Assembly: GCF_003112515.1 (NCBI RefSeq)
Contig: NZ_BEVZ01000002.1
Location: 434,001 to 498,000 of the forward strand
Source: Streptomyces fragilis
GTDB lineage: Bacteria > Actinomycetota > Actinomycetes > Streptomycetales > Streptomycetaceae
Direction of reading: 5' to 3'
DNA: 64,000 nucleotides
Made by a program: the position numbers and the translations under genes. Below are positions 10,271 to 10,717 of this stretch, one piece after another. Each line of letters starts with the position of its first letter. Within the stretch, counting starts at the first letter, position 1. The notes below the pieces were generated by a model. That model was given only the letters and a program-made list of their open reading frames with translations, was not told where the DNA came from and searched no databases.

Positions 10271-10363
10271 CGGAGAGGGCAGGATTCGAACCTGCGTGGA
10301 CCACAAGGATCCGACCTCGAGTTTGCACTCAGGTCCCCGATAAACCGCTCCGGGCACCTCTCC
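10271..10363 (-). tRNA. Atypical class II tRNA copy 1: serine-type body, GCA triplet, extended anticodon arm
   Basis: 93 nt on the minus strand. Acceptor stem GGAGAGG/CCTCTCC, discriminator G at 10271, CCA not encoded. D stem CCCG/CGGG with an 11-nt loop; T arm GCAGG-TTCGAAT-CCTGC; long variable arm GGATC-CTTGT-GGTCC. G73, the long variable arm and the acceptor sequence are serine-type. The anticodon arm is abnormal. ACCT pairs with AGGT and GAG with CTC, with one bulged G (10318), leaving the 6-nt loop TGCAAA. The 17-nt arm of normal tRNAs is replaced by 21 nt. The triplet at the anticodon place is GCA (10326-10324). Inference: a seryl acceptor for the neighbouring transferase rather than a translational tRNA-Cys. 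The fold is hand-drawn. Confidence 0.85.
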
Positions 10364-10388
10364 TGAACTTTGCCCGGCTGGCGGGCGG

Positions 10389-10481
10389 CGGAGAGGGCAG
10401 GATTCGAACCTGCGTGGACCACAAGGATCCGACCTCGAGTTTGCACTCAGGTCCCCGATAAACCGCTCCGGGCACCTCTCC
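10389..10481 (-). tRNA. Atypical class II tRNA copy 2
   Basis: Identical in all 93 positions to copy 1, exactly 118 bp away. The 25-bp spacer before it (10482-10506) differs from the other two spacers at its first bases (CGATC instead of TGAAC), so the copies are not simply one exact duplicated block. Confidence 0.85.
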
Positions 10482-10506
10482 CGATCTTTGCCCGGCTGGC
10501 GGGCGG

Positions 10507-10599
10507 CGGAGAGGGCAGGATTCGAACCTGCGTGGACCACAAGGATCCGACCTCGAGTTTGCACTCAGGTCCCCGATAAACCGCTCCGGGCACCTCTCC
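10507..10599 (-). tRNA. Atypical class II tRNA copy 3
   Basis: Identical to copies 1 and 2 and again 118 bp further along. Its upstream spacer 10600-10624 is identical to the spacer at 10364-10388. Confidence 0.85.
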
Positions 10600-10624
10600 T
10601 GAACTTTGCCCGGCTGGCGGGCGG

Positions 10625-10717
10625 CGGAGAGGGCAGGATTCGAACCTGCGTGGACCACAAGGATCCGACCTCGAGTTTGCACCCAGGTCCCCGATAAACC
10701 GCTCCGGGCACCTCTCC
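10625..10717 (-). tRNA. Atypical class II tRNA copy 4 (one pair-preserving change)
   Basis: First copy to be transcribed. It differs from the others by one base (plus-strand C at 10683). This turns GAG into GGG in the extended anticodon stem, changing an A-U pair to G-U, so the unusual stem is kept. A weak minus-strand -10-like TATTAC (10757-10752) lies about 35 nt upstream of its 5' end. Confidence 0.85.

Follow-up and report, generated by a model that had tools for sequence, protein, structure and literature searches.

A stretch of 64,000 nucleotides (nt) from Streptomyces fragilis (NCBI RefSeq assembly GCF_003112515.1, contig NZ_BEVZ01000002.1, positions 434,001 to 498,000), hereafter the window, carries on its minus strand at 10271-10717 four tandem tRNA-like genes of 93 nt each, arranged head to tail with a period of 118 bp. 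Three copies are identical, and the leading copy (10625-10717) differs from them by one substitution in the arm that takes the place of the anticodon arm. With high probability, judging from the comparisons described below, this array would supply a dedicated, predicted non-decoding Ser-tRNA pool, separate from that of the ribosome, to the VlmA-like transferase encoded next to it. The features of the array are, with copies numbered in the order of transcription:

10625..10717, minus strand: copy 1, the leading copy, with one arm substitution
10507..10599, minus strand: copy 2, equal to copy 4 in sequence
10389..10481, minus strand: copy 3, equal to copy 4 in sequence
10271..10363, minus strand: copy 4, 93 nt up to the discriminator base G73
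10667..10689, minus strand: replaced anticodon arm of the leading copy, assigned by fold and covariation, with an equivalent place in the other copies
10211..10261: large GC-rich inverted repeat past the last copy, read from the sequence; a possible terminator shared with the TetR gene

Each gene has a class II body with a 7-bp acceptor stem, TG at positions 8-9, a 4-bp D stem and GG in the D loop, and its 3' half comprises a variable arm of 5 bp in which one T is bulged, a T stem of 5 bp, a TTCGAAT loop and G73. The CCA 3' end is not encoded. The acceptor domain is of the 7/5 type in all four copies, and both marks of a serine tRNA, the long variable arm and G73, are present. In the minimum-energy fold, the anticodon arm is a stem of 9 bp that is interrupted by a single bulged G and capped by a GCAA loop, and a 5-bp stem with a 7-nt loop and U33 can be formed in none of the four copies. 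ARAGORN returned tRNA-Cys (gca) for one copy and tRNA-??? (gcaa) for the other three. Coordinates, ARAGORN and fold together confirm the four-copy tandem array of serine-type class II tRNAs that had been proposed from the sequence-only reading of the window.

An Rfam search of the array gave no family at the gathering score. The closest tRNA family below threshold was tRNA-Sec with 26-27 bits against a cut-off of 47, and all low-threshold matches (tRNA-Sec, a plastid untranslated region, a small nucleolar RNA) were set aside as weak or due to chance. With the Rfam tRNA model, 67 tRNAs were found in the host genome, the four of the array not being among them. The array occurs at a single place in this genome, which also holds decoding tRNA-Ser genes with GCT, TGA, CGA and GGA anticodons; this implies that the array is not needed for serine decoding.

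To follow the RNA beyond the window, a covariance model was built from the four copies and run on 295 Streptomyces genomes. Some match was obtained in 115 genomes; matches of at least 58 bits form one family, as judged by reading the places, and this family proper is present in 35 of the 295 genomes. Because no more than 14 candidates were scored in each genome, under strict filters, absences are no proof. Among 20 mostly weaker matches that were read, 15 were ordinary tRNA-Ser or tRNA-Tyr by ARAGORN, four were family members (one of them decayed) and one (L225) had no call. In total, 72 sources gave 86 matches, of which 76 were distinct; 74 were retained after L163, an ordinary tRNA-Ser (gct), and the broken copy L123:14619 had been dropped. 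The dropped L163 gene (9322-9411, genome G211, beside the housekeeping serS) has a loop readable as TGGCTCA, apparently without U33, and tRNA-Ser (gct) genes like it in other Streptomyces look normal.

Two wider searches delimit the family. Among 394 genomes of the class, it was seen in five, namely the host, three congeners and G562, a genome from another family; of 32 further genomes with matches, 15 were read, and all 15 held ordinary tRNA-Ser. A pattern scan of GTDB representatives listed at least 80 loci, all actinobacterial by their titles, from Streptomyces, Kitasatospora, Streptacidiphilus, Embleya, Saccharothrix, Actinokineospora and Salinispora plus two metagenome-assembled genomes. 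The scan pattern required the T arm and the acceptor and left the arm free, so that these loci are uninformative on the conservation of the required parts; the U33 arm was found in none of the 90 distinct genes among the named loci listed. A VlmA homologue lay within 20 of the 80 listed stretches (of up to 8 kb), including that of Streptomyces atratus JCM 3386 (L271), a strain of the species named for elaiomycins in PMC11705231. One listed copy (L278) is carried by plasmid pSA3239 of Streptomyces lavendulae CCM 3239, and azoxy genes were not found in the 8 kb around it. The enlarged set comprises 152 distinct genes, all actinobacterial.

Sequence conservation within the family is sharply divided between body and arm. 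The acceptor is identical in 69 and the T arm in 71 of the 74 model-found genes, which have the 7-bp acceptor, 5-bp T stem, TTC T loop and D-loop GG that mark an elongator body. The same 74 genes have 66 different arms with 42 different loops (GCAA, GCGA, TTCG, TACG and many others), 73 of the loops being 3-5 nt long. As the loops vary widely and are nevertheless short, the kept feature is a short closed loop and not an anticodon, and the GCA triplet emphasised in the sequence-only reading is not a conserved feature. That reading had also stated that a normal 5-bp/7-nt arm is missing, and this was borne out: such an arm with U33 is possible in 1/74 of the model-found genes and in 1/152 of the enlarged set, compared to 39/39 ordinary tRNAs (the distinct ones read from the 67 in the host genome). 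In the T stem, pair 51-63 is A51-U63 in 74/74 family genes versus G51-C63 in all four tRNA-Ser of the host, and G49 is kept. ARAGORN assigned the relatives to Asn, Ser, Leu, Cys, Asp, Val, Gly, Ala, Arg, Thr, Lys, SeC or none, and was silent at five of 30 family loci; public annotations may therefore carry false tRNA names.

Pairing within the replaced arm was assessed by covariation and by an arm-swap test. In the model-fitted alignment of all 76 distinct genes (still including L163 and L123:14619), two-sided changes occurred in eight of the nine arm pairs, and the two-sided cells of the whole structure numbered 153 against a shuffled mean of 33.9 (0/500 shuffles as high). When 11 gap-free genes of 87 nt were aligned without the model, four of eight arm pairs had two-sided changes; the number of cells (13 versus 4.5) and the covariation score (0.127 versus 0.057) were both above all 500 shuffles. 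In the arm-swap test, where partners were of equal length and the halves were cut at fixed places without using the fold, the arms of 65 genes folded with -8.5 kcal/mol in their own combination and with -6.8 kcal/mol when swapped, and 0/10,000 permutations were as low. An earlier version of this test had given -9.2 versus -5.2 kcal/mol and was biased, as the strands had been cut from each gene's own fold. We conclude that the arm drifts in sequence with its pairing retained, i.e., that the hairpin is under selection.

The array is surrounded by genes that resemble those of azoxy biosynthesis. The relevant features are:

10884..11885, plus strand: VlmA-like aminoacyl-tRNA transferase (PF09924, LPG_synthase_C), divergent from the array
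6257..7624, plus strand: SerRS2, a second seryl-tRNA synthetase (SerRS), with a diverged N-terminal tRNA-binding domain
1518..2063, plus strand: VlmO-like membrane protein, predicted N-N bond former, by residue numbering
1984..3636, plus strand: AurF-like diiron oxygenase, a possible VlmB counterpart; weak match below the Pfam cut-off
23..997, plus strand: class III aminotransferase, match without the first 83 positions of the profile
4979..6190, plus strand: FabF-like ketosynthase, start estimated from the profile match
12233..13432, plus strand: fatty-acid-desaturase-like membrane oxygenase
7777..8571, minus strand: SARP regulator (Trans_reg_C and BTAD)
9492..10169, plus strand: TetR regulator adjoining the array
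L007:13513-14655, outside the window: VlmH-like candidate, acyl-CoA dehydrogenase-like, with inferred identity, about 11 kb from the VlmA gene

The true start of the AurF-like protein is probably further inside its open reading frame (ORF), and the N-terminal part of the aminotransferase is probably encoded upstream of the window. Directly upstream of the window, an aldehyde dehydrogenase gene stands together with the VlmH counterpart. In the literature, VlmA is described as a PF09924 protein (PMC9379638) that uses Ser-tRNA to transfer serine onto a hydroxylamine (PMC12945691), and VlmO as an N-N bond former with four essential residues (PMC11705231). The ORF at 1518-2063, for which Pfam gave no match, has D51, H82, H110 and D114 at the numbering of these residues, VlmO itself being unaligned. 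Based on the VlmA-, VlmH- and VlmO-like genes and the aminotransferase gene, the cluster is predicted to make an aliphatic azoxy compound. SerRS2 retains the SerRS active-site stretches TAEVPLTN and FRSEAGSYGRDTRG, as revealed by alignment to a solved SerRS, and its N-terminal domain scored 43.5 bits versus 91.5 bits for the housekeeping SerRS.

Across the Streptomyces set, the RNA is co-inherited with VlmA. A VlmA homologue of at least 320 bits is encoded in 53 of the 295 genomes, comprising 34/35 genomes with the RNA and 19/260 without it; the lone RNA genome without a close VlmA (G168) has a relative of 32% identity beside its RNA. On a VlmA tree of 52 rows, RNA presence is explained by two changes versus 15.6 after shuffling (0/500 as low), a statistic uncorrected for near-copies, which inflate such clustering. 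The tree left out the RNA genomes G082, G113, G123, G201 and G213 (VlmA unfetched or cut), G168 and eight genomes with VlmA of 252-272 bits. G562 has a tandem array of three copies whose loop is TTCG, at a distance of about 1 kb from a SerRS2 (58%); homologues of VlmA (64%), VlmH, aldehyde dehydrogenase and aminotransferase are encoded within about 30 kb. The core idea of the sequence-only reading, a non-translating seryl-tRNA tied to a cluster that carries SerRS and DUF2156 (LPG_synthase_C) genes, is favoured by comparative evidence from VlmA (34/35) and from the arm (1/152).

The extra synthetase behaves differently. SerRS2 of at least 600 bits is encoded in 16 genomes, and all 16 have the RNA. 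A SerRS2 of this score is missing from 19 of the 35 RNA genomes; four of these (G038, G113, G168 and G194) encode a SerRS that is 58-60% like SerRS2, and of these four only G038 and G194 have it next to VlmA or the RNA, on the same contig. In G035 and G258, the search turned up the housekeeping SerRS alone. SerRS2 was consequently dropped as key partner, and the extra SerRS of the earlier prediction is not obligatory. A negative control was provided by 18 Streptomyces loci, read out of 30 places that encode a SerRS with 58-61% likeness to SerRS2; no azoxy gene or family RNA was found near any of the 18. These loci (L189-L205, L208) represent a second SerRS clade, and an ordinary tRNA-Ser lies near four of the 18.

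Upstream of the array and of one neighbouring gene, sites of the following kind were predicted:

10773..10799, minus strand: predicted SARP operator of the array, GTCAG-N6-GTCAG-N6-ATCAG, with 11-bp period
10757..10762, minus strand: predicted -10 element CAGAGT, 8 bp past the third repeat
12101..12127, plus strand: third operator-like site, three RTCAG repeats ahead of the desaturase gene, found with a looser pattern

SARP promoters are described as having direct repeats with an 11-bp period, the last one 8 bp from the -10 element (PMC10936776), and VlmI sites as three heptameric repeats (PMC10972967). The upstream region of the array (10757-10799) matches the published layout of SARP promoters. 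A scan of the 6.85-Mb host genome for the strict triple site gave two places, one ahead of the array and the other where the gene row of aldehyde dehydrogenase and VlmH begins; the reversed pattern gave no match.

The repeats recur ahead of family genes elsewhere, where the leading gene of each group was counted and L090:19849 was left out because its upstream region was unfetched. A double repeat precedes 61 of the 68 leading genes and one of 15 internal tandem copies, with control values of 1/34 for ordinary tRNAs and 127/20,000 for random windows; an exact triple repeat precedes 45/68. The double repeat combined with CANNNT at 8-bp spacing was found at 50/68 leading genes versus 55/20,000 random windows, and the double repeat alone at 73 of 79 leading genes among the named loci listed. 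In 11 RNA genomes, 88 loose sites were detected, 32 of them just ahead of RNA genes and 28 at most 30 kb from VlmA; the reversed control gave none in all 11. A further triple TCAG repeat with 11-bp period (L007:5911-5937, G000:C2) lies on the upstream side of the aldehyde dehydrogenase gene, about 6 kb away, and stands directly ahead of a large FG-GAP/CBM96 gene, one in a row of four FG-GAP genes. The SARP regulon may reach the FG-GAP proteins.

Many copies are dispersed over the genomes. The maxima are ten matches in G003, where nine of ten copies have the exact triple site, and ten matches in G282, one of them decayed (L224, G282:C7:429193-429290, tRNA-Arg by ARAGORN), so copies can die. Copies unlinked to azoxy genes sit in genomes that also hold an azoxy cluster, and the double repeat precedes 36 of 40 leading copies away from azoxy genes as well as 25 of 28 among them. 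When 79 flanks of dispersed copies were compared, no flank was shared throughout, and the appearance of the 25 similar pairs is that of synteny or local duplication; a mobile-element origin is unsupported by this comparison. Dispersed copies bearing the repeat have the look of a gene for a trans-acting product and argue against a cis-acting element. The syntenic copies L073:9897-9985 and L085:9943-10032 are followed, after about 30 nt, by a possible start codon that has a GAGGAGG-like site, and this copy may therefore be co-transcribed with an ORF.

Taken together, an RNA without an anticodon loop, inherited with a serine-transferring enzyme, likely represents a family of aminoacyl carriers without an anticodon that is widespread among actinobacteria and has up to ten genes per genome; it would be switched on together with the pathway, would have coevolved with the transferase and would form a private seryl-tRNA pool. 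In the proposed mechanism, the SARP of the cluster would switch on transcription of the array, and the transcript would be matured by RNase P followed by CCA addition. The RNA would then be charged with serine by SerRS2 where this is present and by the housekeeping SerRS elsewhere. The ribosome is proposed to refuse the RNA because it has no anticodon loop, and the A51-U63 pair in the T stem may also weaken binding to EF-Tu. Finally, the VlmA-like transferase would take the serine from the RNA to give an O-seryl-hydroxylamine, which the VlmO-like enzyme would convert with formation of the N-N bond. Serine as the cargo is suggested by the tRNA body.

A number of results weigh against parts of this interpretation. 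Regarding linkage, the earlier prediction that copies are confined to clusters failed: of 60 stretches of about 20 kb around matches, a chosen sample with several per genome, 25 contain azoxy genes and 35 do not, although three of the 35 (L073, L085 and L124) are 23-32 kb from VlmA on the same contig. Moreover, G033, G117 and G146 have no copy in the 15-20 kb around VlmA, their copies being elsewhere. Equally frequent unlinked copies had been named beforehand as speaking against a tie to the cluster; this nearly came about, but the unlinked copies sit in genomes that also have a cluster, and the repeat stands at 36/40 of the leading ones. Regarding the enzyme, no RNA was found in G073 and G086, which have a nearly complete cluster with a VlmA of 62% identity, and none in a clade of 17 VlmA rows (50-56% identity). 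These RNA-free genomes imply that the chemistry can run without the RNA, and the two groups make the dedicated RNA a trait of some azoxy lineages only. The 19/35 RNA genomes lacking a close SerRS2 belong here as well.

Similar reservations concern the operator and the hairpin. The double repeat is missing from seven and the exact triple repeat from 23 of the 68 leading genes, the fragmented assembly G213 has six triple sites, none of them at its RNA genes, and 28 of the 88 loose sites are neither at RNA genes nor near VlmA. Nine RNA-free genomes had 0-8 loose sites each, several of them perfect tandem repeats, and two of the nine gave two matches with the reversed control; the repeat pattern alone is therefore not specific. 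As to the hairpin, the 76-gene alignment was itself fitted to the model, the number of two-sided pairs in the 87-nt set (four) was not above the shuffles (177/500), and in the earlier swap version the own partner was best or tied in just 12 of 60 cases.

One alternative is that the RNA acts in regulation or as a decoy, being a tRNA mimic that stays uncharged and binds SerRS, VlmA or some other partner, and the SARP-type operators and the many dispersed copies do resemble those of a regulon member. A decoy, however, would not need in full the acceptor stem, G73, T arm and variable arm that are intact family-wide, and the RNA tracks the serine-transferring enzyme more closely than SerRS2, which leaves this explanation unlikely. 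Dead tRNA duplicates or passengers of mobile DNA would fit the dispersal in several genomes, the decayed L224 and the broken L123:14619; with a near-invariant body, a covarying arm, operators ahead of most leading copies, co-inheritance with VlmA and no flank common to the 79, they are hardly credible.

A dedicated non-decoding tRNA with a cargo other than serine, be it alanine or a derivative into which serine is turned while on the tRNA, is decidedly improbable. Alanine has been proposed for the VlmA homologue of azodyrecin (PMC9379638), which counts against serine as well, and modification of tRNA-Sec-bound serine is known (PMC7609411). The latter paper names the long variable arm and G73 as serine identity elements, and the active-site stretches retained by SerRS2 likewise argue for serine. 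It is very improbable that the RNA does decode, through an anticodon that is expanded or shifted, be it as a Cys reader with GCA, a four-base reader or a mistranslating tRNA. The ARAGORN calls, gca once and gcaa three times, would suit such a reader, and allo-tRNAs with non-serine anticodons are described as translated (PMC7609411); against it stand 42 loops in 74 distinct genes, the single gene in 152 with a possible U33 and 7-nt loop, and mutually inconsistent ARAGORN names for the relatives.

Among known RNAs, tRNA-Sec is likewise a class II tRNA serylated by SerRS, and it was the best sub-threshold Rfam tRNA match. It has an 8-bp acceptor and a UCA anticodon, whereas the array RNA stays under the Rfam cut-off, has an acceptor of 7 bp and lacks a UCA anticodon. 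tmRNA is an aminoacylated tRNA-like RNA without a normal anticodon arm. Viral tRNA-like structures, too, are described as aminoacylated without such an arm (PMC9976931); in tmRNA and the viral structures, whole arms are replaced by domains or pseudoknots, whereas here the cloverleaf is complete and the arm tip is altered. Allo-tRNAs are also unusual class II serine acceptors with non-serine anticodons, but their acceptor domain is described as 8/4 or 9/3 and their anticodon as readable (PMC7609411), in contrast to the 7/5 acceptor without anticodon of the present family.

Closest in function would be the non-proteinogenic tRNA-Gly of Staphylococcus aureus, a tRNA reserved for non-ribosomal transferases of the FemXAB group, which serve peptidoglycan synthesis and to which VlmA has been likened (PMC12945691). 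Its T-stem changes A49-U65 and A51-U63 are associated with weak EF-Tu binding (PMC4052509); the family here has A51-U63 and keeps G49, which makes the likeness to weak-EF-Tu tRNAs merely suggestive. In S. aureus, the reserved tRNAs are tRNA-Gly isoacceptors with weak EF-Tu elements, whereas here a class II serine body has lost its decoding loop and the genes are arrayed in a secondary-metabolite cluster with SARP-type operators. The valanimycin cluster similarly combines a SerRS paralogue (VlmL), a PF09924 transferase (VlmA) and a SARP; it was compared by description only, and the literature text available for it names tRNA-Ser in general and no dedicated tRNA. How Ser-tRNA is diverted to the valanimycin pathway is stated as unknown in PMC4052509.

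A literature search gave no description of such a tRNA in open-licence papers, where a recent, preprint or subscription paper is possible. The family thus appears undescribed and would be the first dedicated secondary-metabolism tRNA by this search. If the interpretation is true, it would answer how a charged tRNA is steered from translation to natural products, namely by removal of the anticodon. The family would also serve as a genome-mining mark for a large part of the azoxy clusters and as a source of natural templates for non-decoding aminoacyl carriers.

Apart from the azoxy genes, the window encodes at 21714-23243 an enolpyruvyl transferase of the EPSP-synthase type fused to an N-terminal helix-turn-helix domain.

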